Shown piece by piece: positions 6,939 through 22,096 of a stretch of DNA of 64,000 nucleotides. The DNA comes from Acetobacter sacchari (GTDB lineage Bacteria > Pseudomonadota > Alphaproteobacteria > Acetobacterales > Acetobacteraceae). The stretch is from NCBI RefSeq assembly GCF_017377715.1, contig NZ_JAFVMF010000004.1, forward strand, positions 1 through 64,000. Direction: 5' to 3'. Within the stretch, counting starts at the first letter, position 1. The number at the start of each line of letters is the position of its first letter. The notes beneath the pieces are model-generated. The model was not told the DNA's origin and did no database searches. It worked only from the letters and a program-made list of their open reading frames with translations. The position numbers and the translations under genes were made by a program.

Positions 6939-7445
6939 CTCCATGAACGGCGCCGGGCTTTACGCCCATCGCGGCGCTCAGACCTCGCATACTCACGATC
7001 GTCTCAGATACTTATTTTCTGAACTCCGCTAGAGAGCCACCTGGCCCATAGCGCCCCCGGGGCCGGCACCCTGGAAATTTCCCTGAATGTAATTTGCGCT
7101 CACGGCTCGCGACGTGGGTCCCCTCGCCTTCGCGAGAAACTTCCGACGCCTATTCGTTGGCCGCCATCCGAAATACGCTCAATATGTCAATTTCAACATC
7201 CCCCTGACCTCGTGAGCGCTTGACGCCAACAACTGCGCGCTCACGCACCTGAAGCATCCGTTACAATATTGAATATGATGCTTTATATTATTTACACTTT
7301 CCACTCATTGAATCACCGTCTCTCTGGCGCCATCGTTTGGTCTGCGCCAAAGAAGAAGCGTCTCTGATTTCGAAATATTCGTCACGAGCCGCCAATACTC
7401 GCATTGCGCCGCGCGCTCCTTCCCGTCATCCAAGAGAACACTTTC
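6939..7445. other. Non-coding gap before the first sulfonate-type cluster
   Basis: About 500 bases with no convincing gene on either strand. The last 180 bases are AT-rich (for example around 7260-7310) and probably carry the promoter of the binding protein at 7446. A CTCGCGA...TTCGCGAG inverted pair occurs near 7109-7141. Confidence 0.5.
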
Positions 7446-8432
7446 ATGCCAGAAATTTTAGCAACACCCATCAAACGTCGACAATTTCTTGGGGCGGCCG
7501 CACTGACCTGCGTTGGCGGAGCTTTGGGCGGACAGGCCCGCGCCGCCAATCCAGGCGTTACGTTGAGGGTGGCGACTTTTCGCGGCATGGACTCCACACT
7601 ACTACCAGCGGCGCACGTCGCGGATTTCCCTTACACCGTGGCTTACAGCGAATTCAATTCCGGCAACCTCATCGCGCAGGCCATCAACGCCGACGCCATC
7701 GATCTGGGCGGCTGGAGCGAGATTCCGATGGTGTTCGCCGCAGCCGCCAAATCGAATGTAGCCGTCGTGGCTACTCTCGAAGGTCCGACGACCGATCAGG
7801 CGGTGCTCACGCCCGCCAACTCTCCCTATAAATCCATCAGCGATCTGCGCGGCAAACGCGTCGGATACATCCGCGCCACTACAGCACATTACTTTCTGAT
7901 CCGGATGCTTGAGCAGGCCGGGCTTTCATGGACGGATATCCAGCCCGTCGCCCTTTCGATGAGCGAGGGATTGACCGCTATCAAATCCGGCAGCCTGGAT
8001 GCGTGGGCGACATACGGTTACGCAATCCAGATACTGGAAGCCGCTGGCGCGGCGCGGGTTCTGCAAAGCGCCGCCGATATTCTTTCCGGACATTACTTCA
8101 TCGGCGCCAACCCGCGCAAATTGGGGGATCCGGCTTTCCGCGCCGCCGCCGCCGATTATCTTGACAGACTCAACCGTGCATACGCCACGCTCGCAGCCGA
8201 CAAGGCGTTATGGGCCAAAGTCGTCTCGCCTGTCATCCACGTTCCCGAAGATGTCGTGCTCGCCTATTTGCGCGCGCAGAACCGGCCATATCGCGCCCGA
8301 GCCTGGCGACAGGACGATATCGTCAGCGCCGACGCAGTAGCAAGAACGTTTGCAAAAGCAGGTGTTTTACCGCAAGACGCCAACGTCGCCGCAGTTTTCT
8401 CACCCGCGCTTTCAAAGCTTCTTCCGGCTTGA
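7446..8432 (+). CDS. Periplasmic substrate-binding protein, SsuA/TauA-type
   Basis: 328 residues from ATG 7446, preceded by a purine-rich AAGAGA; the upstream ATG at 7404 has no such site and would bury the signal. The N-terminus has a twin-arginine signal, KRRQFLGAAAL, ending near AARA. The rest is an NMT1/SsuA-like fold: VATFRG...GNLIAQAINADAIDLGGWSEIP, then DLRGKRVGYIRATTAHYFL and LDAWATYGYAI. Such proteins bind aliphatic sulfonates, taurine or related anions. It is convergent with, and probably works with, the permease/ATPase pair at 8477-10080. Confidence 0.85.
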   Translation: MPEILATPIKRRQFLGAAALTCVGGALGGQARAANPGVTLRVATFRGMDSTLLPAAHVADFPYTVAYSEFNSGNLIAQAINADAIDLGGWSEIPMVFAAAAKSNVAVVATLEGPTTDQAVLTPANSPYKSISDLRGKRVGYIRATTAHYFLIRMLEQAGLSWTDIQPVALSMSEGLTAIKSGSLDAWATYGYAIQILEAAGAARVLQSAADILSGHYFIGANPRKLGDPAFRAAAADYLDRLNRAYATLAADKALWAKVVSPVIHVPEDVVLAYLRAQNRPYRARAWRQDDIVSADAVARTFAKAGVLPQDANVAAVFSPALSKLLPA

Positions 8433-8435
8433 CGG

Positions 8436-8476
8436 TCTGCGCGCCGCCACGATCGCGGCGCGCAGATTTAGATTTT
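8436..8476. terminator. Strong bidirectional terminator between binding protein and ATPase
   Basis: A perfect 12-bp stem, TCTGCGCGCCGC / GCGGCGCGCAGA, has a 7-base loop and is followed by TTTAGATTTT. It fills the 44-base gap between two convergent genes. The T-rich tail favours termination of the plus-strand gene. Confidence 0.85.
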
Positions 8477-9247
8477 CTAAATAGAAACACCAAGTGATTT
8501 AAGAAGCGTCTCGCGCATATCTTCAAAGACAGGATCGACGTGTTTACGGGGCCGCTCAAGGGCCACAGGCATATCCACCCTGATCCTGCCACGCTCCAGA
8601 ACAACAGCGCGGTCGGCCAGCAATAGCGCCTCGTCGACGTCGTGAGTCACGAGCAGAACGGCACAGCGACGGCGCTTCCACAGCTCTCCAACCAGCCCCT
8701 GCATTTTCAGACGCGTAAGGGCGTCCAGCGCGGCGAAGGGCTCATCCAACAGCAAAAACCCAGGCTCCCGCACAAGCGCGCGCGCAAGCGCTGCGCGCTG
8801 CGCCTCGCCGCCAGAAAGGGTAAGCGGCCACGCGTCGATCCGGTGCGCAAGTCCGACCTCCTCCAGAATCGCCGCCGCGCGATCTCGCCCGTCCTTTCCC
8901 TCCTGTCCCAGAACAACGTTCTCCCAGACGCGCTTCCATGGAAGCAGACGATGCTCCTGAAAGACGACCGAAACTTCCCGAGGACGCGACACCGCGCCTT
9001 CGACGACAGGATCGATACCCGCCAATGTGCGCAAGAGCGTCGATTTACCCGAACCGCTATGTCCCAGAAGCGCCACGAACTCACCAGGAGCAATGGCGAG
9101 ATCGAGCCTGTCCAGCACGGCGGGGCCATCCCCAAAACGCCGCGTCAGCCCTTCCACGATTACCGCGACGTTACCGTCCTCATGGCTCCCGGCATGGACG
9201 GCTACAGTTGCAAGCTCGCTCTGCGCACGCTTCAGCACCGCGCTCAT
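8477..9247 (-). CDS. ABC transporter ATP-binding protein, SsuB/TauB-type
   Basis: 256 residues. Walker A GHSGSGKST at 62-70, Q-loop FQEHRLLPW near 97, signature LSGGE at 144-148, Walker B FLLLDEP at 164-170 and the switch His in VTHDVDEAL. The Q-loop and 'LLPW' wording is typical of nitrate/sulfonate/taurine ATPases. Its ATG overlaps the stop codon of the permease upstream (ATGA), so the two are translationally coupled. It would power import of an organosulfur-type anion, with the binding protein at 7446 or 10256. Confidence 0.9.
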   Translation of the reverse strand: MSAVLKRAQSELATVAVHAGSHEDGNVAVIVEGLTRRFGDGPAVLDRLDLAIAPGEFVALLGHSGSGKSTLLRTLAGIDPVVEGAVSRPREVSVVFQEHRLLPWKRVWENVVLGQEGKDGRDRAAAILEEVGLAHRIDAWPLTLSGGEAQRAALARALVREPGFLLLDEPFAALDALTRLKMQGLVGELWKRRRCAVLLVTHDVDEALLLADRAVVLERGRIRVDMPVALERPRKHVDPVFEDMRETLLKSLGVSI

Positions 9248-10080
9248 CGTGCCGCTCCTCGCGCCAGCGGACGCCAGACGAGAAGCTTCGCTTCAAGGAA
9301 ACGAACGATCTGATCGGAAAGCAAACCGAGGACGCCGTAAACCAGCAAGCCGACCATAATGATGTCCGTTCGGAGGAAGTCTTCCGCGTCCATCATCATA
9401 TGACCGATGCCGCTTTCCGCGTTCACCTGTTCGGCGACCACCAACATCAGCCACGATACGCCGACAGCGTAGCGAATGCCGATGAGAAGATCTGGTAACG
9501 CGCCCGGCAAAATCACGTTACGGATCGTGTCCAGACGGGAGAGGCCCAGCGTGCGGGTCATTTCCAGCAACTTCGGATCGATCGACCGCACGCCCTTGTG
9601 GAGGTTCAGGTAGATCGGAAACGTGGCCCCAAGCGCGACGAGGAGCACTTTCGGCGTCTCACCGATGCCGAACCACAGAATGAACAGCGGCACGAGCGCC
9701 AGTGCGGGTAACGTGCGCATGATCTGCAGCGGCGCATCGACCAGATCCTCCCCGACGCGCGAAAGTCCGGAGAGCAGGGCCAACGTCACGCCGACGACCG
9801 CCGCAATGCCGAACCCGGCGCCCGCGCGCAGCAGGGAGACGCCGAGATTCGATGTCAGCGTCCCGTCAGCGATGAGAGAGGCGGCGGTCTGCGCAATCTG
9901 CCACGGCGACGCGACGAGGCGCGTCGACACGAAGCCGGATGCGCACGCGGCCTGCCATACCGCAACAAGAAGCAGAGGCGACAGGTACCGACGAAAGCGC
10001 CCCAACTCCCGAAGGGCGATCCGCCCACTTGCGCCTTGAGATCGTCCTCGGGACGCGAGGCTTATGAGGGTTTCCGACAT
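9244..10080 (-). CDS. ABC transporter permease, SsuC/TauC-type
   Basis: 278 residues from ATG 10080, chosen because GGAG sits 10 bases upstream; an upstream in-frame start at 10134 lacks a site. About six membrane segments are visible. The EAA cytoplasmic loop is LLEMTRTLGLSRLDTIRNV near the middle, followed by LPGALPDLLIGIR. Family members form the channel for sulfonate, taurine or nitrate import. It is the first gene of the leftward pair and is transcribed away from the binding protein at 10256. Confidence 0.9.
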   Translation of the reverse strand: MSETLISLASRGRSQGASGRIALRELGRFRRYLSPLLLVAVWQAACASGFVSTRLVASPWQIAQTAASLIADGTLTSNLGVSLLRAGAGFGIAAVVGVTLALLSGLSRVGEDLVDAPLQIMRTLPALALVPLFILWFGIGETPKVLLVALGATFPIYLNLHKGVRSIDPKLLEMTRTLGLSRLDTIRNVILPGALPDLLIGIRYAVGVSWLMLVVAEQVNAESGIGHMMMDAEDFLRTDIIMVGLLVYGVLGLLSDQIVRFLEAKLLVWRPLARGAAR

Positions 10081-10255
10081 GTTTCGCGCTCCGATTTCCA
10101 CGTTCAGGGCGCGAAGGTAGTGCATTATATACAATATCGAATGTTAAATTAATTAATCACATCCATTGATGTGTTTTATTTGCCCCCCTTCCCGTCGGTT
10201 GGCACTCTCTCCGCTGCAAGCCGCCCACAGCTGGAACAATTCAGGACCGCCCTTA
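10081..10255. promoter_or_regulatory. Divergent promoter region between two sulfonate-type transcription units
   Basis: This 175-base gap separates the leftward permease from a rightward binding protein. Its centre (about 10120-10165) is very AT-rich and includes TTAATTAATTAA and ATATACAATAT, in contrast with the GC-rich flanks. Promoters for both directions are expected here; no exact boxes are assigned. Confidence 0.5.
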
Positions 10256-11206
10256 ATGCCGCGCCCATTCTTTCATGCAGCCAATTTCTTCCTCGCCATC
10301 GCGGCCGCTCTGACAGTTACAGCGACAACGGCGCGCGCAGAGGGCGAACTGGTCGTCGCGGACCAGAGGGGGCTTCAGAAGGCGGTCCTGCAGGCGTCGA
10401 AGGCCGATCAGAATCTGCCGTACCGCGTGCGTTGGGTCGAATTCGACGCCGCAGCGCCGCTGCTGCAGGCGTTGGGCGCAGGCGCGGTGGACACGGGTGT
10501 CGCCGGCGACGGGCCTTTTCTCTTTGCGTGGGGCGCCGGGCAACCGATCAAGGCCGCTTACTGGCTCCCGCCGCGGGGTGCGGGCCATACGACCGCCGTC
10601 GTGACAGGCGAGCATTCCCCGATACGCACAGCAGCAGACCTGTCTGGCAAGACCATCGCGACGGGGCGCGGCTCCATCGGTCATTTGTTGCTGCTGCGTC
10701 TGATTCAGACCGGCGCGATTCCGGCTCCCGCCCCCCGTATCGTGTTTCTGCCTCCAGCGCAGGCGAAAGCGGCGCTGGACAGCGGCGCAGTCGACGCGTG
10801 GTCGACGTGGGAGCCGTATGTTTCCCTCAACCTTGTGCAGAATCATGGACATGTGGTCGCCGACGGGCAGACTGTGCTGCCCAACAACGGTTTCCTTGTC
10901 GCGACTGACTCCGCCCTGAAGAACAAGCGGGCCTTGCTGGCGGATTTCTATCGGCGCGTCAGCGACGCTTCGCGGTGGGCGGAGAACCACCAGAGCGAAT
11001 ACGCGGCCATCCTGTCCCGCCAGACGGGAATGCCGCAGGACGTTTCCGTGGCTGTGGCGAAGGAACTGATCTCCACCCCCGGCCCCGTCAACCCTTCCGT
11101 CGTTCAGGCCGAACAGGCGACGCTGGACGCCTATCGCGCCGCCAATCTTGTCGACCATGGCGGTTCGGTCGCCGCCGCATTCATCACCGGATTCGCAGCG
11201 CCGTGA
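10256..11206 (+). CDS. Periplasmic substrate-binding protein, SsuA-type
   Basis: 316 residues from ATG 10256, 8 bases after AGGACCG; the upstream start at 10166 would disrupt the signal peptide. A Sec-type signal runs FFLAIAAALTVTATTARA. The mature part has VVADQRGLQKAVLQASK, LGAGAVDTGVAGDGPFLFAW, ADLSGKTIATGRGSIGHLLLLRL and VDAWSTWEPY, all SsuA-like. Its stop overlaps the GTG start of the flavoprotein (GTGA), so transport and redox genes are one operon. It may deliver substrate to the permease encoded divergently. Confidence 0.87.
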   Translation: MPRPFFHAANFFLAIAAALTVTATTARAEGELVVADQRGLQKAVLQASKADQNLPYRVRWVEFDAAAPLLQALGAGAVDTGVAGDGPFLFAWGAGQPIKAAYWLPPRGAGHTTAVVTGEHSPIRTAADLSGKTIATGRGSIGHLLLLRLIQTGAIPAPAPRIVFLPPAQAKAALDSGAVDAWSTWEPYVSLNLVQNHGHVVADGQTVLPNNGFLVATDSALKNKRALLADFYRRVSDASRWAENHQSEYAAILSRQTGMPQDVSVAVAKELISTPGPVNPSVVQAEQATLDAYRAANLVDHGGSVAAAFITGFAAP

Positions 11207-12849
11207 CCGACCGGGTCCGAACATATGACACGGACGTCCTGATCATCGGCGGCGGCCTGGCCGGATGCTGGACCGCGATCTCGGCGAGGCGGGCCGGAGT
11301 CCGGGCCATCGTCGCAGAAAAAGGGTATTGCGGCACATCCGGCGTGGCCGCCTCCGCCGGTCCCGGACACTGGTTCGTTCCTCCCGAAGCGCGGTTGCGG
11401 GAAGAGGCGATCGCTCGTCGGATGGCGGGCGCCCAGGGGTTGGGCGACGCGCGATGGATGGAGCGCATCATAGACCGAACGTATCGGACTCTCCCCGATA
11501 TCGGCACGCATTATCACTACACGCCAGACGATTCCGGCGCCGTTCGGCGGCATGCCTTGCGCGGGCCGGAATATCTCCGCGCCCTCCGCGAGAAAGCGCT
11601 TGCTGCAGGCGCCGTCCTGCTCGACCACAGCCCTGCCTTGCAGCTTCTTGGACACCGTGACGGCCGCGTCTCCGGCGCGCAGGGCGTCTCCCGGCAGGGC
11701 GACGGCGACGAGTGGCTGGTGCGCGCCGGCGCGGTGGTTCTCGCAACAGGCGGCTGCGCGTTCCGCTCGCACCTTCTGGGCGGTTCGAACAATACCGGCG
11801 ACGGCCTGCTGATGGCGGTCGAAGCCGGAGCGGCGTTGTCCGGGATGGAATTCTCTTCCTTCTTTACTGTCGCCCCTGCAAACACGCCGTTGTCCCGCGC
11901 GATGATTTTCAGTTTCGCACGATATTACGACACGCAGGGGCGTGAGATCGCCAAACCCGCAGCGCCAAACGATCACAGCGCTATCGCCGTTGCGCTGCAA
12001 GGCGGGCCGGTCCTGTGCGACCTGTCAGCGACGCCGGAGATCGTCCGTCGTCAGCTGCCGCAGATCTCTCCGAACGTGACGCTCACATTTCGCAGGCTCG
12101 GTATAGATCCTTTCACGCAACGCTTTCCAATCTCGTTGCTGGGCGAGGGAACGATACGTGGCGTAGGCGGCGTGCGCGTCACAGGCGAAGACGCCGGAAC
12201 TGACGTGCCCGGCTTGTACGTGGCGGGCGACGTCGCGTCGCGAGAGCCCGTAACAGGACCGGTCACCGGCGGAGGCGCCGTCAACGCCGCATGGGCTTTG
12301 GCGTCAGGTTGCATCGCAGCCGAAGCCGCTGCTCGCAGCGCGCTGGAAAACCCTTTGGACCAGCGATCGATTTTAGAACCTCTGGGTGACGCCGGGTTGT
12401 CGACGCGACGTGACCGCACGAATTCGTCGACGACGCGATCCGCGTTTGCGAACACGCTGTCGAAAGGCCCGACGCGCCCGGACGCCAGCGCTTCGAGCGA
12501 AGTCGAGATCGTGCTGCGTGAGGAAATGCTGTCCCCGACGCGCCAGTACTTCAGAAACGCCGATACGCTCGCCGCAGCCTCCGCGCGCCTCTCCGCCGCA
12601 TGGGGTGCATTACGCGACGCGACGCCTCCTTCAGCCGGGCCGCGCGAACGCCAGCGGTTTCGAGAGCTTGCCGCCATGACCGCAACCGCGCGCTGGTGCA
12701 CCGCAAGCGCCGCGGCGCGCACGGAAAGTCTCGGCATGCACCGCCGCACCGACAGCAGCACTAACGGAAGCGACGTTCCGGCTTATGTAATTTCGGGCGG
12801 CGCAGACACCGTCTGGACGCGTCGCCAGGCTGCCGGAACCGTCTCATGA
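11203..12849 (+). CDS. FAD-dependent oxidoreductase, fumarate-reductase/AprA-like
   Basis: 548 residues from GTG 11203; a longer frame exists to 10975 but only by running through the upstream gene. The FAD dinucleotide fold LIIGGGLAGCWTA is near residue 13. Later come ATGGCAFRSHLLGGSNNTGDG (flavin-covering loop) and LYVAGDVASREPVTGP with GGAVNAAWA near residues 340-370; the C-terminus has ESLGMHRRTD. This is the FrdA/SdhA/AprA fold. With the 8-Cys ferredoxin directly downstream (ATGA overlap) the pair resembles AprAB-like modules that accompany organosulfur importers. The substrate is unknown; a simple succinate dehydrogenase is unlikely because no membrane anchor is present. Confidence 0.82.
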   Translation: MTDRVRTYDTDVLIIGGGLAGCWTAISARRAGVRAIVAEKGYCGTSGVAASAGPGHWFVPPEARLREEAIARRMAGAQGLGDARWMERIIDRTYRTLPDIGTHYHYTPDDSGAVRRHALRGPEYLRALREKALAAGAVLLDHSPALQLLGHRDGRVSGAQGVSRQGDGDEWLVRAGAVVLATGGCAFRSHLLGGSNNTGDGLLMAVEAGAALSGMEFSSFFTVAPANTPLSRAMIFSFARYYDTQGREIAKPAAPNDHSAIAVALQGGPVLCDLSATPEIVRRQLPQISPNVTLTFRRLGIDPFTQRFPISLLGEGTIRGVGGVRVTGEDAGTDVPGLYVAGDVASREPVTGPVTGGGAVNAAWALASGCIAAEAAARSALENPLDQRSILEPLGDAGLSTRRDRTNSSTTRSAFANTLSKGPTRPDASASSEVEIVLREEMLSPTRQYFRNADTLAAASARLSAAWGALRDATPPSAGPRERQRFRELAAMTATARWCTASAAARTESLGMHRRTDSSTNGSDVPAYVISGGADTVWTRRQAAGTVS

Positions 12850-13187
12850 TTACTTCTCTCGACACCGAGCGTTGCACCGCCTGCAATCAGTGCGTCGCAA
12901 CATGCCCACGTGACGTCTTCGAAAAGACCGAACACATCCCGACGATCGCCCGTCCGCAGGACTGCCAGACGTGCTTTCTCTGTGAACTCTATTGCACGGC
13001 GGACGCACTTTTTGTTCATCCTGAAGCTGAACCCGCGATGGCGGCGCGCCTCACGCCGTCAGACATCACGCCTCTGCTCGGCGAATACCGGCGGGAGTCG
13101 GGATGGGACGAATGGAGCGAGAACCCGCGCTACGCCAACCAGCACTGGCGTATGGAGGACGTGTTCCGGCTCGCCCGCGATGGATGA
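12846..13187 (+). CDS. 2x[4Fe-4S] ferredoxin, AprB-like partner
   Basis: 113 residues. Two cubane motifs are plain: C10, C13, C16 and C20, then C40, C43, C46 and C50. The tail WDEWSENPRYANQHWRMEDV is rich in aromatic and acidic residues and may dock on the flavoprotein. Its ATG overlaps the flavoprotein stop (ATGA). Adenylylsulfate reductase beta has the same two-cluster plan followed by a C-terminal tail, so an electron-transfer subunit is the natural reading. It is cytoplasmic: there is no signal peptide. Confidence 0.85.
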   Translation: MITSLDTERCTACNQCVATCPRDVFEKTEHIPTIARPQDCQTCFLCELYCTADALFVHPEAEPAMAARLTPSDITPLLGEYRRESGWDEWSENPRYANQHWRMEDVFRLARDG

Positions 13188-13281
13188 CCTCTTACCGATC
13201 AGCCGCGCCGCCCTGCAACATGAAGCGCCCGTCGTCGACGTATTCTGTTATCGTCCCGTCTGCCCTGCTTATCAGCAATAA
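13180..13281 (+). CDS. Tiny ORF overlapping the ferredoxin end (33 residues), doubtful
   Basis: An ATG at 13180 overlaps the ferredoxin stop and opens 33 codons ending CYRPVCPAYQQ. It shows the same overlap style as the genes upstream. There is no recognised family and no ribosome-binding site separate from the ferredoxin gene. It may be a coupled small protein, a leader, or chance. Confidence 0.25.
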   Translation: MDDLLPISRAALQHEAPVVDVFCYRPVCPAYQQ

Positions 13282-13334
13282 CTGCTCCGGCCTTTCATCA
13301 TGACCTTTTGGAACGTCACAACCACCGTCCTTCA

Positions 13335-13353
13335 CGCCCGCGACACGCGGGCG
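13335..13353 (+). promoter_or_regulatory. Perfect GC hairpin upstream of the acyl-CoA-dehydrogenase-fold gene
   Basis: CGCCCGCG-ACA-CGCGGGCG is an 8-bp stem with a 3-base loop, lying 24 bases before the ATG at 13377 and just before its GAGGAGA. It has no T-run. It could set differential expression inside the operon, pause transcription, or block upstream decay. Confidence 0.5.
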
Positions 13354-13376
13354 GCGCGACACGAGGAGATCACTCG

Positions 13377-14537
13377 ATGAATGTGCTCACGCCCCGACCA
13401 CATCGCCCGTCGGACGCGATCGAAGCTGCGTTGGACAGGCTGGTTCCGATCTTCGCTGAACGTGCTCCAGCATACGACCGTAGTGGAACGATTGCGCTCG
13501 ACAATCTTCTCGACCTGAAGGAAGCCGGACTGCTCGCTCTCGCGCTGCCGCACGATAAGGGCGGCGCTGGCATAGGCGTGGCCGAAATCTCGAGGATTGT
13601 GGGACGCGTAGCGACCGGCGATCCGACGACGGCGCTGATCCTTGCGATGCAATATCTTCAGACGGGCGCCATCGCGCGGGCCTCGGGCTGGTCGGAGGAG
13701 GTTCGTGACGAGCTGTTCGCCAGCGTCGTGCGCGACGGCGCTCTGGTGAACGCACTGCGTGTCGAGCCGGAACTTGGCACCCCCGCACGGGGCGGGTTGC
13801 CCGCCACAACGGTCCGCCGTGAAGGCGGGCGTTTCCTGATCAGCGGTCGCAAAATCTTTTCCACCGGATCGACCGCCCTTCGCTGGGGCGTCGTCTGGTC
13901 CCGCACCGACGAGGAAACGCCGCGCGTGGGGCAGGTTCTTGTGCCGCTGGACCTGCCGGGCGTGCGGATCGAAGAAAGCTGGCGTCATATGGGCATGCGC
14001 GCGACCGCCAGCCACACGATTGTTTTCGAGGACGTGGAAATCCCGGAACGTTACCTCGTGTCGCTGAAGGCGCCGGGCGCGTCCGTCGACGAAGCCGTCG
14101 CGTTGGCGAGTTGGCACGCCATCGTCATCGGCGCGCTCTACGACGGCGTGGCGCGCACGGCCCGCGACTGGCTGATCGGCTATTTGAAAGAGCGTACCCC
14201 GGCCAATCTAGGCGCGCCTTTGGCGACCCTGCCGCGCTTTCATGCCCTGCTGGGCGAGATTGACGCATTACTTCTCACCAATCGCGCATTGATCGAACAC
14301 GGGCTGGCGCGCGAAGCCGCTGGAGAACGAGGCGACGCCGACGCTGGCCTGATCAAATACACGGTGACGGAGAACGCCATCGCCGCCGTCGGCAAGGCCG
14401 TCGCGGCGATCGGAAATCCGGCGCTCAGTCAGGACAATCCACTCGAGCGCCACTATCGGGACGTGCTGTGCGGACGCATTCACACCCCGCAGGGGGATTC
14501 AGCGCTCGGCGGGGCGGGGCGGCTCGCTCTCACCTGA
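13377..14537 (+). CDS. Acyl-CoA-dehydrogenase-fold flavin enzyme (DszC/SfnB-like)
   Basis: 386 residues from ATG 13377 with GAGGAGA 9 bases upstream. The fold runs from LDNLLDLKEAGLLALALP through GDPTTALILAMQYLQTG and ISGRKIFSTGS to the C-terminal PLERHYRDVLCGRIHTPQGD and GGAGRLAL. That C-terminal block is the pattern of the two-component FMN monooxygenase branch (DszC, SfnB, SfnC), not of true fatty-acyl dehydrogenases. The flavin reductase at 18728 could supply reduced FMN. It follows the AprAB-like pair on the same strand, which supports a role in releasing sulfur from an organic donor; that role is inference. Confidence 0.8.
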   Translation: MNVLTPRPHRPSDAIEAALDRLVPIFAERAPAYDRSGTIALDNLLDLKEAGLLALALPHDKGGAGIGVAEISRIVGRVATGDPTTALILAMQYLQTGAIARASGWSEEVRDELFASVVRDGALVNALRVEPELGTPARGGLPATTVRREGGRFLISGRKIFSTGSTALRWGVVWSRTDEETPRVGQVLVPLDLPGVRIEESWRHMGMRATASHTIVFEDVEIPERYLVSLKAPGASVDEAVALASWHAIVIGALYDGVARTARDWLIGYLKERTPANLGAPLATLPRFHALLGEIDALLLTNRALIEHGLAREAAGERGDADAGLIKYTVTENAIAAVGKAVAAIGNPALSQDNPLERHYRDVLCGRIHTPQGDSALGGAGRLALT

Positions 14538-14778
14538 TACACAGTGGGCAATCTTCGCCGCGCTGGGCGCAGGTATAAATCAAGACATGCGTCGGACGGT
14601 TTTCAACACGGAGCCGGGCCTACTCTTCGAACTGGTCTAAGACTGACACTTCGCGCGCCCGGTAACGTCCTGAAACCCGGCGAGAATTATCCTCGACGTC
14701 AGTGCCGAAGCTTGAGTCTGACGGGTATCGATCCATCGTGCACAATGAGGCCAGCTTTTGTTAAACACGGCGACTGCG

Positions 14779-15159
14779 CTATATTTTTTTGTCAGATCTC
14801 GATAATTTCTCCTTTTTGTAGTGATCGAGTTTTGTCTTTATAAAAGCCTCGACCTCATGAAGAACTTTCAACTTACCCCTGATTACGTCGAGCCGCTCCT
14901 CAAGAAAGACGACCGTTTGTTCAGGCGTAAGGTTCGCAGCGCCATGCGCTTTCAGCAGCGGCCCAATCTCCTTGAGCGAAAAACCAAGGCGTTGCGCCTG
15001 ACGCACTTTTTCGATCGTGGTCAGCACGGCAGGGTCATATTCGCGATAGACGCGACTTCCGGCTCGCCGCTCGGTCGAGGCGATCAGGCCCATCTCTTCG
15101 TAATGACGGACGCCATCCTTCGACAGGCCAGCGATCCTCGCCACTTCACTGATCAGCAT
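14779..15159 (-). CDS. MerR-family transcriptional regulator
   Basis: 126 residues from ATG 15159 (the frame runs further upstream but the MerR domain begins MLISEVARIAGLSKDGVRHYEEMGLI-like right at this ATG). The winged HTH spans about 1-70 (YREYDPAVLTTIEKVRQAQRLGFSL follows), then a dimerisation helix with FLEERLDVIRGKLKVL. There is no cysteine in the effector region, so metal or Cys redox sensing by a typical MerR/SoxR site is unlikely. It faces the SDR gene across a classic 19-bp-spacer promoter at 15170-15200, so it probably controls SDR plus VOC and itself. Confidence 0.9.
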   Translation of the reverse strand: MLISEVARIAGLSKDGVRHYEEMGLIASTERRAGSRVYREYDPAVLTTIEKVRQAQRLGFSLKEIGPLLKAHGAANLTPEQTVVFLEERLDVIRGKLKVLHEVEAFIKTKLDHYKKEKLSRSDKKI

Positions 15160-15169
15160 TGCGCGCCTC

Positions 15170-15200
15170 TTGACTGTGGGGTTTCCCCACAGATTATCTG
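15170..15200 (+). promoter_or_regulatory. MerR-type promoter with operator dyad in a 19-bp spacer
   Basis: TTGACT (15170-15175) and TATCTG (15195-15200) are 19 bases apart, the over-long spacing MerR proteins correct by DNA distortion. The spacer holds the perfect inverted repeat CTGTGGGG-TTT-CCCCACAG (15174-15192). It points toward the SDR gene at 15240, and the MerR start is 11 bases away on the other side. Confidence 0.85.
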
Positions 15201-15239
15201 AATGGCCATGTGAATAAAGCCGCATGGAGCGATACTGAC

Positions 15240-16058
15240 ATGGCCAATGTTTCCAAACCCGTCGCCCTCGTATCGGGCGCATCGTCCGGCATCGGCAAGG
15301 ACATAGCCCTGCGCCTCATCCGGGAAGGCTACGTCGTCTACGGCGGCGCACGCCGCGTCGGAAATATGGCGGATATCGAAGCCGCCGGCGGTCACGCCAT
15401 TGCTCTGGACGTCACCGACGACGCTTCAATGACGCAGGCGGTCGACCGGATCATGCGCGAACAACGTCGCCTCGACGTGCTGGTCAACGGGACCGGTTAC
15501 GGCCAATACGGAGCGCTGGAAGACGTGCCCATGGCGGAAGCCCGCCGTCAGATGGAGACGAACCTGATCGGAGCCGCCCGGCTTGTTCAGCTTTGTCTTC
15601 CTCATATGCGCGCCGCTGGCGACGGCGCGATCCTCAATATTTCCTCGATCGGTGGAAAGTTCGCGCTGCCGCTCGGCGGCTGGTATCACGCATCCAAGTT
15701 CGCCCTTGAGGGATATTCAGACGCGCTGCGGAACGAAGTGCGCCAGTTCGGGATCGAGGTGATCGTGATCGAGCCGGGCGGAATTGCCTCCGAATGGGAG
15801 AGCATCGCAGCGGATGAAGCCGCACGCCTTTCGGGCGGCGGCGCCTACGCTGCGATGGTCGAGAAATTCCGCAACATGCGGGGCAAGCGTCAGGCCCCGC
15901 CGCCCGCAGTAGTGTCCAATCTGGTTGTCCGAGCGTTAAACGCACGACGCCCGGCCACCCGGTATAGTGGCGGGCTTATGGCGCGACCGTTGTTGTTCCT
16001 GCGGCGTCACCTGTCCGACCGGATGTTCGACCGCCTTATCATGTCAGCTTTTCGCTGA
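15240..16058 (+). CDS. Short-chain dehydrogenase/reductase
   Basis: 272 residues from ATG 15240; an in-frame ATG at 15210 lies before it with no ribosome site. Cofactor motif GASSGIGKD near residue 11, NGTGYG in the NNAG position, and the active site Ser...YHASK (residue about 145) are all in place, with the long C-terminal tail seen in classical SDRs that act on lipids or quinones. R-rich GARRVG after the second strand suggests NADP. It is the first gene under the MerR-type promoter, with VOC next. Substrate unknown; stress-aldehyde or quinone detoxification would fit the regulator. Confidence 0.88.
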   Translation: MANVSKPVALVSGASSGIGKDIALRLIREGYVVYGGARRVGNMADIEAAGGHAIALDVTDDASMTQAVDRIMREQRRLDVLVNGTGYGQYGALEDVPMAEARRQMETNLIGAARLVQLCLPHMRAAGDGAILNISSIGGKFALPLGGWYHASKFALEGYSDALRNEVRQFGIEVIVIEPGGIASEWESIAADEAARLSGGGAYAAMVEKFRNMRGKRQAPPPAVVSNLVVRALNARRPATRYSGGLMARPLLFLRRHLSDRMFDRLIMSAFR

Positions 16059-16101
16059 CTCGCCCCCGCGGCGGCGCATACAAAACCGAACAAGGATATG
16101 A

Positions 16102-16497
<396 letters not shown>

Positions 16498-17048
16498 CCC
16501 GGCGATGACGGTGCAGGCAGGTCGTCCGAGCAATTTCGACATACCAACTCTCCTCCCGTCGCCAAATCGCAACCGGAATCGTAAAATTCAAGACGATCAC
16601 TTGAGACGCCGCTCTATAAATCAAGCCACATTCAACGAAGAGACGTCATTGACCCAGCAGGTTTTGATGTCCAGCTGTCCCTGCTGAGAGACCCATTCCG
16701 GCTTTTCAAATCGCTCGGACCTGCCTGACGCAGGCATGCTCGAACTTCAGTAATGGCCTCTTCCCAGCTCCCAACCGGCGCTGAGGTCCAAGCCAGAGGC
16801 GCGCGACCGTCGCGCAGCACACATTCAACGAGGCTCGAACGTCGCGCCGTATTTGCCCTCCTGCCGTTCGGAACAAATTTCTTTGTTTAGCAATACGTTA
16901 ATGCAAGAAATTCATTTTCACTAACAAAAATAGTTAATTATATAAACACTTGTTAAATGTATTAATTTGGTCCATATATATTTATATAACTTATATTTTT
17001 AGTGAATTATCCGACGCGCGACAACCCGCGTCATCAGGAGACGTCCCC
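16498..17048. other. Gap with a 12-bp direct repeat and a very AT-rich end
   Basis: No convincing gene. CACATTCAACGA occurs twice in the same orientation (16627-16638 and 16820-16831). The minus strand between them carries a 62-codon frame whose product I do not recognise. From about 16870 to 17005 the sequence is extremely AT-rich and likely holds the LysR promoter. Confidence 0.45.
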
Positions 17049-17942
17049 GTGTCGCAATCGTCCCAGTCCACGCTCCCTCAACGGATGGCGCGCAATGTTC
17101 CTACGGAACTGTTGCGATCGTTCGTCGCGATCGTCGAGGCTGGCTCGATGGCGCAGGCGACGGAGACAATTTTCCTCACGCAATCCGCCCTGAGCCTGCA
17201 GATGAAGCGGCTTGAGGATGTGCTGCAACAGAAACTGTTCCGGCGGGACGGGCGTCGCCTGACCCTCACGGCGCCAGGCGAAGAACTCATCTCATACGCG
17301 CGCCAGCTTCTGGCGCTCAACGACCGGATCATGCACACGCTCGGACAGAGCGTGGATGAAGACCCGATCACCGTGGGGATGGTGCAGGATTTCGCCGACA
17401 CGGTTCTTCCCGATGTGCTCAACCGTTTCCGCCTCGAACACCCCCGCGCACGCCTTATCGTCCGCGTTGGCGGGTCGGCGGAGCTTCTGGAGATGTTCGA
17501 CCGCTCCCGCCTCGACGTCGTGCTGTGCCTCGGTCAGCACGGAGATCGACCGGGCGCGAGCTGGCGCGTCGTTGGCCACGATCAGATGGTCTGGCTGGGC
17601 GATACCGCGTTGACCGAACTCGACGAACTTCCGCTTGCCCTGCTCGAACCGCCGTGCCGTTTTCGTGACGCTGCGCTACGGACTTTGACGGAAGCGCGAC
17701 GTGATTACCGGATCGTGCTGGAGACGCCCAACCTCCCGGCGATGCGCGCAGGGGTGCGCGGACGCCTTGGCCTGAGTTGCCGCACGCGTCGTTTCGCCGC
17801 CGCCGAAAGGCTGCCGATCATGGCTCCGGATGCTTTGCCGCCATTACCGGAAATCGAAACGGTGCTGGTCGAACGGGAAGGTCTATCGGAAGCCGCGCGC
17901 GATCTCGGCGACCTTCTCGCCCGCACAATCGGCAATCGTTGA
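17049..17942 (+). CDS. LysR-family transcriptional regulator
   Basis: 297 residues from GTG 17049, 8 bases after CAGGAGA; the ATG at 16950 lies in AT-rich DNA with no site. The winged HTH is at about 18-75 (LLRSFVAIVEAGSMAQATET...LTQSALSLQMKRLE). The C-terminal co-inducer domain has DLLARTIG-type closing helices. Placed before the redoxin, flavin-reductase and second importer genes, it is the natural regulator of that unit; CysB/Cbl-like control by sulfur status is inference. Confidence 0.87.
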   Translation: MSQSSQSTLPQRMARNVPTELLRSFVAIVEAGSMAQATETIFLTQSALSLQMKRLEDVLQQKLFRRDGRRLTLTAPGEELISYARQLLALNDRIMHTLGQSVDEDPITVGMVQDFADTVLPDVLNRFRLEHPRARLIVRVGGSAELLEMFDRSRLDVVLCLGQHGDRPGASWRVVGHDQMVWLGDTALTELDELPLALLEPPCRFRDAALRTLTEARRDYRIVLETPNLPAMRAGVRGRLGLSCRTRRFAAAERLPIMAPDALPPLPEIETVLVEREGLSEAARDLGDLLARTIGNR

Positions 17943-18030
17943 GCTGGGCCCAAGAGCGTGATGACAAAAACTTCGTGGTCCGTGCGCTCTTCGGTCCTTC
18001 ATAAGAAATGGCGCGAAAACACCGATCAGG

Positions 18031-18738
18031 ATGAACGCCGTGGCCAATAACCAGAAAGACAGCACCCCGAGCCTCAACGCCCTCTTCCGCGAACTCGACG
18101 CCGAGCGCCGCAGGACATGGGCTCCGGAGGCTTTGGCGATCAACGTCAACCAGCGCGCGACGCTGCGCCGCGACCACGGCGCGTCTCCCCATGTGCAGAT
18201 TGGCGACACGCTGGAGCCCGCCACGCTGCGCAACGCCGCTGGAGAATCCGTTTCCCTGGACTCGCTGACCGAAAAAGGGCCTGCCGTCATTGTCCTGTTT
18301 CGTTTTGCGACCTGTCCGGCGTGTAATATCGCCCTCCCGTATTATCGCGATACTCTCTGGCCGTCGCTTCAGGCCGCAGGGGTCGCGCTCGCGGCGGTTT
18401 CGCCGCAGCCCTTCCCGGCTCTGAACGACATCGCCACGGCGCATGCTTTGCCGTTTCCCGTGCTGTCCGACCCGCAACTTGCTTTCGGTCGGGCCCTCGG
18501 CGTGACCTACCAGTTTGACGACGCATCCCGCGCGGCTGCGGAAGCCAAGGGGGGGACGCCGCACGCGCTCAACGGCGTCGACATATGGGAACTGCCGAAG
18601 CCCGCTGTCCTGATCATCTCTCCGGATCGCAAGGTTCTGTTCGCCGATGTTTCTCCGGACTGGATGGAGCGAACGGAGACCTCGACGATTCTGAAGGCCC
18701 TCGGCCTGACGCCAACGGAAATATCCCATGCTGCGTGA
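18031..18738 (+). CDS. Redoxin (AhpC/TSA-type, CxxC)
   Basis: 235 residues. The thioredoxin fold has VIVLFRFATCPACNIALPYY with Cys95 and Cys98, then VSPQPFPALND and VLSDPQLAFGRALGV as in peroxiredoxins of the PRX-like2 / AhpC-TSA family. A 60-residue helical N-terminus precedes it. It overlaps the flavin reductase by 11 bases and heads the rightward run toward the second importer. It could remove peroxide made by an FMN monooxygenase or handle released sulfite/sulfur; both are guesses from context. Confidence 0.82.
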   Translation: MNAVANNQKDSTPSLNALFRELDAERRRTWAPEALAINVNQRATLRRDHGASPHVQIGDTLEPATLRNAAGESVSLDSLTEKGPAVIVLFRFATCPACNIALPYYRDTLWPSLQAAGVALAAVSPQPFPALNDIATAHALPFPVLSDPQLAFGRALGVTYQFDDASRAAAEAKGGTPHALNGVDIWELPKPAVLIISPDRKVLFADVSPDWMERTETSTILKALGLTPTEISHAA

Positions 18739-19273
18739 TGCGGACACGCCCACCGCCACAATTTCTCCCGGCGATGTAACGCAAGACGATTTTCGGCGCG
18801 CCATGAGCCTGCTCGGCGCGCCGGTCGTACTGGTGACGACGGATGGCCCGCACGGGCGGCACGGGCTGACGGTCTCGGCCATATGCAGCGTCAGCGACAC
18901 CCCGCCCACCGTTCTGGTCTGCCTCAACCGGTCCAATCGGTCGCACGCCGCCTTTCTGCTCAACGGCGCGATCGGGATCAGCCTGCTCGCCGAAGGACAG
19001 GAAGCGATCGCGGGCGCGTTCGCCAGCAGTCGCCTGAGTTCGGAAGAACGTTTCGCCAATGGCGTGTGGCGCGTGGGCGCAAGCGGCGCGCCCCTGCTCG
19101 AACAGGCGGTCGCGACGCTCGATTGCGCCGTTGCGTCTGTGCAGACCTCCGGCAGCCATGACGTTCTGTTCTGTCGCGTCAACGCCATCGCTCACCCGTC
19201 GGACGACGGACACGGCCTTGCCTGGTTCGACCGTCGCTTTCACGTCCTTCCCCGTTTCACGACGCAATTTTGA
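18728..19273 (+). CDS. Flavin reductase (HpaC/DszD-like)
   Basis: 181 residues. FRRAMSLLGAPVVLVTTDG opens the FMN-binding split barrel, with GLTVSAICSVSDTPPTVLVCLNRSN forming the flavin site and the C-terminal AWFDRRFHVL typical of this family. It would use NAD(P)H to reduce FMN and pass it to a two-component monooxygenase such as the DszC/SfnB-like enzyme at 13377. Overlaps the redoxin gene upstream and abuts the binding protein downstream. Confidence 0.87.
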   Translation: MLRDADTPTATISPGDVTQDDFRRAMSLLGAPVVLVTTDGPHGRHGLTVSAICSVSDTPPTVLVCLNRSNRSHAAFLLNGAIGISLLAEGQEAIAGAFASSRLSSEERFANGVWRVGASGAPLLEQAVATLDCAVASVQTSGSHDVLFCRVNAIAHPSDDGHGLAWFDRRFHVLPRFTTQF

Positions 19274-19293
19274 AGACACAGGTTCGGTCGACG

Positions 19294-20340
19294 ATGAAAT
19301 CTTCCTATGCTCTTTCCCGCCGATCGACGCTCGGCCTGCTCGCGGGCGCGGCGCTCCCCTTCGCCGCGCGCGCCGATGGTCCCCACGACATGAACTGCAT
19401 GCCGGCGTCCGGCGACAGCCCGGCGCCTGCGCCATCCGGCCCGCCGCGTAAGGTGACGATTGCGTGGAACGAAACTGCCGTCTGCACGGCCGCCGTTCCG
19501 GTTGCGAAGGCAAAGGGATTTTTCGCGCGTCGTAATATCGACGTCGATTACGTAAATTTTGCAGGATCCACCGATCAGTTGCTGGAGGCGCTGTCCACCG
19601 GCAAGGCGGACGGAGCGCCGGGGATGGCCCTGCGCTGGCTGAAGCCATTGCAGCAGGGATTCGACGTCAAGCTGGTCGCGGGGCTGCACGCGGGATGCAT
19701 GTTCCTCATGACCACGCCGACCTCGGGCCTATTCAAACTTCAGGACCTGCGTGGGAAGACCATCGGCGTCACAGATATTGGCGGCCCGGATCGCAACTTT
19801 TTCTCCATTCGCCTGAAAGAGGCGGGCGTCGATCCGGAAACGGACGTGCAGTGGCGGCAGTTTCCGGTCGACCTGCTGCCCGTCGCGCTGCAACGCGGCG
19901 AGGTGCAGGCCTTTTCTGACGGCGATCCGTTCTCGACCATGCAAAAGAAGCAATTCGGACTGATCGAGATCGACAGCAATATGCGCGACAAATGGGCGCA
20001 CACGACATGCTGCGTCGTCGGATTGCGCGGGTCGCTGATCCGGGATGACCCCACGACCGCCACGGGCGTTGCACGCGCGATTCTTGAAGCAGGCGCCTGG
20101 CTCTCCTGCAATCCGGACGAGGCTGCCGAAATCTTCAAGCCATACGCGCCGAAAGCGAACGCCGCCGATCTGGCTGCCATCATCCGCGCGCAGGGCCATC
20201 ATCACCAGACGTCGGGCGCAGCTTTCCGGGACGAGATCGTGCTTTACGCCGACGCTTTGAAGCAGGTCGGCGTCTTCCGACCGTCGCTCGACTCCCACCG
20301 CTACGCCGAGCGATTTACTCAGGATCTGTTCAGCTCATGA
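19294..20340 (+). CDS. Substrate-binding protein of second importer (NMT1/SsuA-type, Tat signal)
   Basis: 348 residues from ATG 19294; a TTG at 19270 overlapping the flavin reductase stop would add 8 residues. A Tat signal SRRSTLGLLAGAALPFAARA is followed by HDMNCMPASGD. The binding fold has VPVAKAKGFFARRNIDVDYV, STGKADGAPGMALRWLKPL and DLRGKTIGVTDIGG. GHHHQTSGAAF near residue 305 is an unusual His cluster. Its stop overlaps the permease ATG (ATGA). A closely related orphan copy lies at 27490-28536. Confidence 0.85.
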   Translation: MKSSYALSRRSTLGLLAGAALPFAARADGPHDMNCMPASGDSPAPAPSGPPRKVTIAWNETAVCTAAVPVAKAKGFFARRNIDVDYVNFAGSTDQLLEALSTGKADGAPGMALRWLKPLQQGFDVKLVAGLHAGCMFLMTTPTSGLFKLQDLRGKTIGVTDIGGPDRNFFSIRLKEAGVDPETDVQWRQFPVDLLPVALQRGEVQAFSDGDPFSTMQKKQFGLIEIDSNMRDKWAHTTCCVVGLRGSLIRDDPTTATGVARAILEAGAWLSCNPDEAAEIFKPYAPKANAADLAAIIRAQGHHHQTSGAAFRDEIVLYADALKQVGVFRPSLDSHRYAERFTQDLFSS

Positions 20341-21329
20341 GCCAGCGCCTCGCCTCATCCGTCCGGTTCGTACCCTCCCCGAACGCCACGACCGTCCGGC
20401 GTGCGTTTCCGCTGGCGCAGACGCTCCCATGGCTCGCCGGTCCGGTGTGGCTTGTGGCGGCGCTCGTAACGTGGCGCGTTCCCGACGCAGACGATTTTCC
20501 CGCCACGAATGACCTCGCCGTTCTGTTCGCGGCCGTCGGCGTCGTCCTTATGGTCGCAGCAGCTGGTCGCCGCCTGTCCGCCCGCGCGCCATGGGCCATC
20601 GCGCTTGGCGTAGGGTTCGGATTGTGGGAAGTCGCGCAAGCCAAGCTGCTCTGGCTTCCCCGCCCCTTCTTTGGAACGCCTCAGGACCTGCTCGACGTGT
20701 TTCAGAGCGACTGGCGCAAGCTCGGCGATAGCCTGCTGCATTCGCTCGCATTGCTGGCGACAGGATATCTGGGTGGGGCGACGCTGGGGATCGCCGTCGG
20801 CGCTGGACTGGGGCGGTCGCCGCGCTTCCGCTACTGGGTGCGTCCGATCATGCGGTTGGTTGGGCCGCTGCCGCCGGTCGCCCTGTTGCCGCTTGCATTC
20901 GTCCTGATCCCATCGAGCAGAGTTGCCGGAGACGCGTTGATGGCGCTTGCGGCTGGATTTCCGGTCGCGGTGCTCACATGGTCCGGCATCGCCGCCGTGG
21001 ACCCGGCCTATTATGACGTGGCCCGCACGATGGGCGCGAAACAGCGCTTCCTGCTGTTTCACGTCGCCTTACCCGCGGCTACGCCGCAGATTTTCGTCGG
21101 GCTGTTCATGGGCCTCGGCGCGTCTTTCTCGATGCTCGTCGTCGCTGAAATGCTGGGTGTGAAATCCGGCCTCGGGTTCTATCTGCAGTGGGCGCAGGGA
21201 TGGGCGGCCTATCCGAACATGTATGCTGCGCTGCTTGTCATGTCGTTGATGTGCTCTGCATTGATGACGGTTCTGTTCAAACTGCGCGACCATTTGCTGA
21301 ACTGGCAGAAGGACGGCCTGAAATGGTGA
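20337..21329 (+). CDS. ABC transporter permease of second importer
   Basis: 330 residues, longer than usual SsuC because of two extra N-terminal membrane segments (residues about 28-80). The EAA loop is YYDVARTMGAKQRFLLFHVALPAA near residue 225. Start overlaps the binding-protein stop and stop overlaps the ATPase start, so all three are coupled. It is predicted to import the same class of ligand as the system at 7.4-11.2 kb. Confidence 0.88.
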   Translation: MSQRLASSVRFVPSPNATTVRRAFPLAQTLPWLAGPVWLVAALVTWRVPDADDFPATNDLAVLFAAVGVVLMVAAAGRRLSARAPWAIALGVGFGLWEVAQAKLLWLPRPFFGTPQDLLDVFQSDWRKLGDSLLHSLALLATGYLGGATLGIAVGAGLGRSPRFRYWVRPIMRLVGPLPPVALLPLAFVLIPSSRVAGDALMALAAGFPVAVLTWSGIAAVDPAYYDVARTMGAKQRFLLFHVALPAATPQIFVGLFMGLGASFSMLVVAEMLGVKSGLGFYLQWAQGWAAYPNMYAALLVMSLMCSALMTVLFKLRDHLLNWQKDGLKW

Positions 21330-22096
21330 TCTCCCCCAGCCGGACGACGCCCCTCGCCCTGCGTCTCGAACACGTAAGCCATGCCTTCCATTCGGACGGC
21401 GCGGTCGTCCCTGTTATCGACAATGTATCGTTGCAGGCGGCGCCTGGAGAGTTTGTGGCGCTTCTCGGACCGTCCGGGTGCGGCAAGTCAACGCTGCTGC
21501 GTCTGATCGCAGGGCTGGAAGCCCCTAAGGAAGGGGCAATCTATGGCGACGACTCGCCCGTGACAGGCCCCGGCCCCGATCGCATCATCATGTTTCAGGA
21601 TCCGACGCTTTATCCGTGGCGGAGAGTTCGCGGCAATGTCGCGCTGGGGCACGACATAAACGGACGCGCCGACGACGAAGCAGTCACCACTGCGCTGAAA
21701 CTCGTCGATCTGCTCGACTTCGAACGCGCATGGCCACACCAGTTGTCGGGCGGCATGGCTCAGCGGGTGGCGCTTGCCCGCGCGTTGGTGAATGACCCGC
21801 GGTTGCTGTTGCTCGACGAGCCTCTAGGCAAGCTGGATAGTTTGACGCGCCTGACCATGCAGACAGAGATTCTGCGCGTTTGGCGTGAAAAGCAGTTCAC
21901 GGCCCTGATGGTCACCCATGACGTCGAGGAAGCGTTGTTGCTGGCGACAAGAATCGTCGTATTCAGCCCCAGACCGGCGCGTGTGCTGGCGGATATCCCC
22001 GTATCTCTCCCCGAGCGACGCCATCGCGACGATCCTAAACTTTTATCTCTCAGGAAAGATATTTTAGCGCAGCTAGGACATCGGGAAGACTGGTAG
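21323..22096 (+). CDS. ABC transporter ATP-binding protein of second importer
   Basis: 257 residues from ATG 21323, overlapping the permease stop. Walker A GPSGCGKST at 49-57, Q-loop FQDPTLYPWRRV near 90, signature LSGGMAQRVALARAL near 137, Walker B LLLLDEP and VTHDVEEALLLA. The 'YPW' Q-loop is characteristic of the nitrate/taurine/sulfonate ATPases. It is the last gene of the rightward run; a CCCGACG...CGTCGGG hairpin lies 40 bases after its stop. Confidence 0.9.
   Translation: MVISPSRTTPLALRLEHVSHAFHSDGAVVPVIDNVSLQAAPGEFVALLGPSGCGKSTLLRLIAGLEAPKEGAIYGDDSPVTGPGPDRIIMFQDPTLYPWRRVRGNVALGHDINGRADDEAVTTALKLVDLLDFERAWPHQLSGGMAQRVALARALVNDPRLLLLDEPLGKLDSLTRLTMQTEILRVWREKQFTALMVTHDVEEALLLATRIVVFSPRPARVLADIPVSLPERRHRDDPKLLSLRKDILAQLGHREDW

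Follow-up and report, generated by a model that had tools for sequence, protein, structure and literature searches.

Aryl desulfonation by the asfRABC genes of Pseudomonas putida S-313 has been described (PMC4267179, PMC10441942, PMC2864759), and AsfA is presented as a recognised marker for the desulfurisation of aryl sulfonates and as part of an electron-transfer system. Here, a gene cluster resembling this kit was analysed in Acetobacter sacchari. The cluster lies in a stretch of 64,000 nucleotides, hereafter the window (positions 1–64000 of contig C122, which has 261,287 bases, in a genome of 4.55 Mb, 166 contigs and 99.68% completeness). A sequence-only reading of the window had proposed a new route for organosulfur uptake and desulfurisation, encoded in a single 15-kb module whose sulfur-releasing chemistry was not explained by known operons. 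Our analysis indicates that the cluster is probably a variant of the known Asf/Ssu sulfonate-scavenging kit, with its SsuD-like operon unlinked on another contig. Literature on asf or ssu genes of Acetobacteraceae was not found among the titles and abstract openings of the open-licence papers listed, and other papers could exist.

Gene parts were identified by Pfam and NCBIfam profile searches, and all components named in that reading were present: two SsuABC-like importers, a flavoprotein/ferredoxin pair, an enzyme of the acyl-CoA-dehydrogenase (ACAD) fold, a flavin reductase, a redoxin with a CPAC motif and a LysR regulator. S-313 asfRABC likewise combines a reductase/ferredoxin pair, a substrate-binding protein and an ABC transporter, alongside an Ssu-type monooxygenase; its LysR regulator may have a counterpart in the LysR of the window. 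As for differences, the window flavoprotein and the presumptive Cupriavidus AsfA, with which the comparison was made, fall into separate clades (43% identity), the LysR gene is not beside asfA, and the ACAD-fold enzyme, the redoxin and the second importer are additional. The alkanesulfonate system ssuEADCB also has an SsuABC-like importer and a flavin reductase, but the window cluster is without SsuD; an SsuD-like luciferase-like monooxygenase (LLM), LLM_X, is encoded elsewhere and scores below the SsuD cut-off. In agreement with the sequence-only reading, neither SsuD nor TauD was among the proteins scanned between 7446 and 22096.

Two further comparisons concern single enzymes. The reductases of adenosine 5′-phosphosulfate (APS) and its 3′-phospho form (PAPS), represented by AprAB and structure 8a8o, also pair a fumarate-reductase-fold flavoprotein, carrying flavin adenine dinucleotide (FAD), with a 2[4Fe-4S] partner, but the window flavoprotein is 16–22% identical by structure alignment and missed the cut-off of the NCBIfam AprA model (33.6 of 557 bits). 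The earlier label "AprAB-like" holds for the fold, and AsfAB-like is the closer reading. Group D flavin monooxygenases (DszC, SfnB, MsuC) share with the cluster the ACAD fold and a nearby flavin reductase gene, but the window enzyme scores far below the equivalog cut-offs of DszC (51 of 850 bits) and SfnB (101.7 of 430.9 bits).

AsfA-type genes and their neighbours

The sequence-only reading had suggested searching for co-occurrence of these genes across genomes, and AsfA and ACAD were searched alike in 397 genomes of the family. AsfA was found in 22, and 20 of these also carry ACAD (Fisher p 3.7e-10, kinship not corrected); in 13 of the 22, the two genes share a contig and are no more than 25 kb apart. 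Neighbourhoods of 18.5–19.9 kb around AsfA in each of the 21 other family genomes with the gene were compared with 20 controls. These were 19.9 kb long and drawn from the same contigs in 20 of those genomes, and 15 of them were contig starts (G387, where the AsfA contig is only 18.5 kb, gave no control). Queries were proteins of the window and its relatives at E<=1e-20. Some of them came from the sampled loci themselves and have an advantage for that reason (LLM_Y from L113; rhodanese, dioxygenase, aldolase and 2-hydroxyacid dehydrogenase from L183).

An LLM was found near AsfA in 18 of 21 loci and in 2 of 20 controls, and at least two of binding protein, permease and ATPase in 16/21 vs 0/20. 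ACAD was near AsfA in 8/21 loci, LysR in 5/21, the redoxin in 4/21 and the flavin reductase in 3/21, each absent from all 20 controls. A single Rhizobium LLM query at E<=1e-15 still gave 13/21 vs 2/20. In a wider set of 80 loci, kept from 214 relatives in named genomes (59 cyanobacterial by title; L001 and L002 included), at least two importer parts were present in 47 and an LLM in 37. In the Caulobacteraceae contig L003, a TauD-family dioxygenase (8141–9103) directly follows AsfAB and precedes a window-type redoxin. Because LLM genes and importer parts flank AsfA far above control stretches, sulfur scavenging by the cluster is well supported by gene context and homology; the score of the SsuA-family binding protein SBP2 (166 bits, above the TIGR01728 cut-off of 163.5) adds to this support. 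The organosulfur theme of the earlier reading was thereby upheld.

Moreover, all 16 window proteins compared are colinear and 94–100% identical in Acetobacter nitrogenifigens DSM 23921 (L001) and Acetobacter sp. DsW_063 (L002), and the host accordingly appears to be a close relative of both. Since these 16 genes keep their order and the components recur together across the family, the arrangement is not due to chance.

The LLM operon lies on another contig

The AsfAB-ACAD unit is separated from the unit of LysR, redoxin, flavin reductase and importer by a block at 14779–16497. It comprises a MerR regulator (14779–15282, minus strand; core start about 15159), an SDR oxidoreductase (15210–16058, plus; ATG at 15240; Pfam and NCBIfam) and a glyoxalase-fold protein (16105–16497, plus; Pfam). 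No relatives of the three at E<=1e-15 were found in the 21 other family AsfA loci; one SDR with 31% identity occurs in L120 at E<=1e-10.

The block occupies the place of an LLM operon. Six related loci have an SsuD-like LLM between ACAD and LysR, in five of them with aldolase, cysteine-dioxygenase-like (CDO-like) and rhodanese genes. The order in L113 and L114 is SBP1 (followed by an LLM in L113), SsuB and SsuC on the minus strand, SBP2, AsfA, AsfB and ACAD, and then LLM_Y, rhodanese, dioxygenase-like protein, aldolase, 2-hydroxyacid dehydrogenase and LLM_X, all on the minus strand, before LysR. L183 and L184, which have no AsfAB, show this type of order minus LLM_Y between ACAD and LysR; LLM_X also lies between ACAD and LysR in L187 and L198, the latter with all four other genes, and in L127 the run from rhodanese to LLM_X precedes LysR. 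LysR copies 76–81% identical to that of the window are divergent from an SsuD-like LLM in L113, L114, L123, L127, L133, L183 and L184. To look for remains of the LLM in the ACAD–LysR interval of the window, the six LLM proteins were compared with 14401–17100 by tblastn; hits were at chance level only (best about 21 bits), and the idea of a relic was rejected.

Contig C72 of this genome carries LLM_X, an aldolase of class II, a CDO-like protein and a rhodanese made up of four successive domains, followed by a TonB receptor. The aldolase, CDO-like protein and rhodanese are 89%, 70% and 68% identical to those of L183. In the two nearest relatives, LLM_X (98–99% identical), the aldolase, the dioxygenase-like protein and the rhodanese are likewise grouped; their contigs have 37,466 and 423,545 bases, and the cluster sits on other contigs (35,918 and 163,835 bases); draft contigs give no chromosomal distance between the two. 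In one Acetobacter clade, the LLM operon is unlinked from AsfAB and the cluster is rearranged.

Among solved structures, the best relatives of LLM_X are MsuD (195 bits) and SsuD (187 bits). The genome has seven LLM matches, none reaching the SsuD cut-off and four above that of NtaA/DmoA; a pair on contig C111 has counterparts of 75–80% identity, likewise a pair, next to AsfAB in two congeners. No TauD (PF02668) match was found in this genome. The probable desulfonase lies outside the locus but within the genome: the SsuD/MsuD-like C72 operon, whose counterpart lies inside the cluster in relatives, is the obvious candidate by homology. With this candidate, and with a pair that resembles the published AsfAB as far as it is described (PMC4267179, PMC2864759), neither the novelty of the route nor the claim that its chemistry is unexplained was sustained. 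Reduction of released sulfite by the host is plausible, since the genome matches the ferredoxin-like half-domain of sulfite/nitrite reductases four times. A. nitrogenifigens encodes a second SsuD-like LLM (G397:C25:1187-2254), 60% identical to LLM_X; the window genome lacks a counterpart at E<=1e-80.

The flavoprotein/ferredoxin pair and the ACAD-fold enzyme

The flavoprotein (11203–12849, plus strand) has the FAD-binding fold of fumarate reductase and APS/PAPS reductases, and its gene overlaps by 4 bases that of the 2[4Fe-4S] ferredoxin (12846–13187, plus; Fer4), which has two CxxCxxCxxxC motifs. The same eight-cysteine pattern occurs in all 16 AsfB relatives displayed. The pair resembles AsfAB of the published aryl-desulfonation kit asfRABC. 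Identity of the flavoprotein as fumarate reductase, succinate dehydrogenase or L-aspartate oxidase was rejected, with a best NCBIfam score of 80 of 718 bits and 75 of 453 bits for L-aspartate oxidase. In a profile alignment, the FrdA stretches HYTMGG and GANRLGSN, which hold its dicarboxylate-binding His and Arg, stand opposite EGTVRGVGG and GAISGGGAVN of the consensus. No source name saying AsfA was present among the matches listed.

A small open reading frame (13180–13281) of 33 codons overlaps the ferredoxin stop and ends in CYRPVCPAYQQ; the possibility of a conserved peptide rich in cysteine was rejected, since the cysteines are not the same in L001 and the stop is lost in L002. Five Bradyrhizobium loci (L007, L009, L011, L012 and L015; positions 2.9–12 kb) have two nearby asfAB pairs, 43–44% and 45–48% identical to the window pair, which suggests that two asfAB kinds work together there. 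AsfAB-like pairs are also common among the cyanobacterial genomes returned (L008–L080, 59 of 80 loci), where SsuABC-type genes and one for a 2-hydroxyacid dehydrogenase are frequent neighbours.

The ACAD-fold enzyme (13377–14537, plus strand) was assigned to its fold by Pfam and by a structure model. The structure nearest to the model bears the title flavin-containing monooxygenase, and the enzyme is probably a flavin monooxygenase. In 20 loci from 20 of the ACAD-bearing genomes without AsfA, a binding protein was present in 8, at least two importer parts in 5 and an LLM in 9. ACAD without AsfAB keeps sulfonate-type company in some, not most, loci.

Importers, regulator and upstream genes

Two binding proteins belong to the first importer and one to the second. 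SBP1 (7446–8432, plus strand) is an SsuA-like periplasmic protein of the NMT1 family with 109 bits on TIGR01728, below the cut-off; its signal contains RRQFLG, presumably a motif like that of the twin-arginine translocation pathway. The SsuB-like ATPase (8477–9247, minus; ABC_tran) and the SsuC-like permease (9244–10134, minus; BPD_transp_1; ATG start possibly 10080) have the aliphatic sulfonate ATPase PRK11247 (233 of 395 bits) and SsuC (246 of 347 bits) as best NCBIfam matches, though both missed the equivalog cut-offs. SBP2 (10256–11206, plus) has one Met and zero Cys after its start (Cys+Met 0.32%). Values below 2%, a threshold chosen afterwards, were found in 6 of 13 module proteins vs 1 of 25 other window proteins.

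Two boxes were noted: TACAATATTGAATAT at 7262–7276 (plus), upstream of SBP1, and TACAATATCGAATGT at 10130–10144 (plus), between the divergent SsuCB and SBP2-AsfAB units. These are the only two exact matches of TACAATATYGAATRT (15 bases) in the genome. At up to 2 mismatches there are 12 matches, 10 of them outside the cluster, vs 6 for a reversed control. Neither the low Cys+Met content nor the 15-base box shows sulfur regulation.

The second operon is headed by the LysR-type regulator (17049–17942, plus; PF00126/PF03466), 4.2 kb from the AsfA stop. Then follow the AhpC/TSA-type redoxin with the CPAC motif (18031–18738, plus; Pfam and NCBIfam) and a RutF/HpaC-type flavin reductase (18728–19273, plus; PF01613 130 bits; RutF 176 of 254.75 bits), the predicted supplier of reduced flavin mononucleotide (FMN). 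The second importer consists of the binding protein SBP3 (19270–20340, plus; ATG at 19294; NMT1_2; TIGR01728 86 bits, below the cut-off), the permease PERM3 (20337–21329, plus; Pfam) and the ATPase ATP3 (21323–22096, plus; Pfam). PERM3 and ATP3 have relatives of 52–59% and 57–61% identity beside AsfAB in L058, L082 and L083. On Paracoccus and Rhizobium plasmids, an LLM, an importer and AsfAB adjoin, together with a second importer 45–61% identical to SBP3/PERM3/ATP3; in the plasmids L082 and L083, CopC-family genes (in L083 also DUF1775) lie between two sulfonate-type importers.

The proposal of one module under LysR held for its parts but not for their continuity: because the MerR/SDR/glyoxalase block interrupts the 15 kb, LysR heads only the second operon. 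Likewise, most joints were said to overlap by 4 bases, and 4–6 of the 10 same-strand neighbouring pairs do, depending on start choice; SsuC/SsuB, SBP2/AsfA, AsfA/AsfB and SBP3/PERM3 are sure, and AsfB-ACAD (189 bases) and LysR-redoxin (88 bases) are gapped.

Upstream of SBP1, a TonB-dependent outer-membrane receptor is encoded at 4262–6883 (plus; PF00593/PF07715). TonB receptors also lie near the cluster in L113, L114, L123 and L003 and near three LLM loci of the same genome. The window receptor has relatives of 30–36% identity in AsfA loci L125 and L126 and none at E<=1e-15 in L113, L114, L123 or L003; its part in the sulfonate system is possible but unproven. Receptors near LLM or Asf genes recur further at L138:14152-16536, L135:11094-13589 and L136:9964-12600, and these systems may include a step at the outer membrane.

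Discussion

A sulfonate substrate, induction on sulfur starvation and the catalytic roles of the individual enzymes, AsfAB and ACAD included, are what homology and gene context suggest. Sulfonates would cross the inner membrane through SBP1/SBP2 with SsuBC and through SBP3 with its own permease and ATPase. The flavin reductase would provide reduced FMN, with which, and with O2, the SsuD/MsuD-like LLM on C72 (perhaps also the NtaA/DmoA-type pair on C111) would break the C–S bond. Sulfur would be released as sulfite, with the cluster helping that release: with sulfonates that are beyond the LLM alone, AsfAB may act on an intermediate or supply it with electrons, and the ACAD-fold enzyme, likely a second flavin monooxygenase, may carry out an adjacent oxidation step.

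Several observations weigh against this reading. LLM_X missed the cut-off of the SsuD model TIGR03565 (226 of 518 bits), though SsuD-type models are still its nearest in NCBIfam, and it reads HSNSPES where SsuD and MsuD read GRSCED. An LLM was not seen in 3 of the 21 family AsfA loci, and fewer than two importer parts were found in 5. The presumptive AsfA of C. metallidurans (the only match on CHR2, perhaps Rmet_4334) lies outside the 99/100-supported clade of the window flavoprotein, and no LysR was among the 9 genes scanned around it, contrary to the expectation from asfRAB; the link of the window pair to published AsfA is, for these two reasons, indirect. Of the 112 family genomes with ACAD, 92 lack AsfA; with a binding protein in 8 and two or more importer parts in 5 of the 20 loci sampled from them, ACAD may also serve other purposes. 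Furthermore, the 13-protein comparison of Cys+Met content is weak overall (p 0.05), and SBP3, at 3.9%, is not sulfur-poor.

The locus might instead be self-sufficient, ACAD and the flavin reductase forming the desulfonating monooxygenase of this clade in place of the SsuD-like LLM, which would now serve other genes. ACAD has stayed in the cluster while LLM_X is unlinked, its model is nearest to a flavin-containing monooxygenase, and group D flavin monooxygenases of this fold are described as oxidising small organosulfur compounds in Acinetobacter (PMC13352529). We consider this explanation unlikely. That AsfAB itself performs the sulfur-releasing redox step by APS/PAPS-reductase-like flavin chemistry would fit a fold family common to both reductases, with the 2[4Fe-4S] partner, and an N5-FAD adduct on sulfur has been proposed for PAPS reductase (PMC10322725). 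However, FrdA and L-aspartate oxidase score equal or higher in structure comparison, the APS reductase model is far from its cut-off, the neighbours seen imply no nucleotide-sulfate substrate, and the cluster members are O2-dependent monooxygenase types, all of which makes such a role for AsfAB very improbable. It is similarly hard to credit that window-type AsfAB, as a separate clade, releases sulfonate sulfur together with ACAD by such APS-reductase-like flavin-sulfur chemistry, as an SsuD-independent module beside an unlinked SsuD-like operon for other substrates.

A different doubt concerns the importers, which could carry thiamine precursors, nitrate or another NMT1-type ligand, the sulfur theme being accidental. 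NMT1/THI5 is a broad fold, and SBP1 and SBP3 missed the SsuA cut-off; SBP2, however, exceeds it, the best matches of the first importer are SsuC and SsuB, and SsuD-like LLM, cysteine-dioxygenase-like and rhodanese neighbours recur, with one TauD. We regard non-sulfonate import as very improbable.

As a variant of the Asf/Ssu kit, the cluster and its relatives yield a parts list for the family, comprising AsfAB, ACAD, an SsuD-like LLM, 2-hydroxyacid dehydrogenase, aldolase, a dioxygenase-like protein, rhodanese, redoxin, flavin reductase and two importers. The comparison also calls for caution with asfA-type genes, which split into at least two deep clades. Finally, one Acetobacter clade offers a natural experiment: with its LLM operon unlinked from AsfAB, separate deletions can test what AsfAB does.

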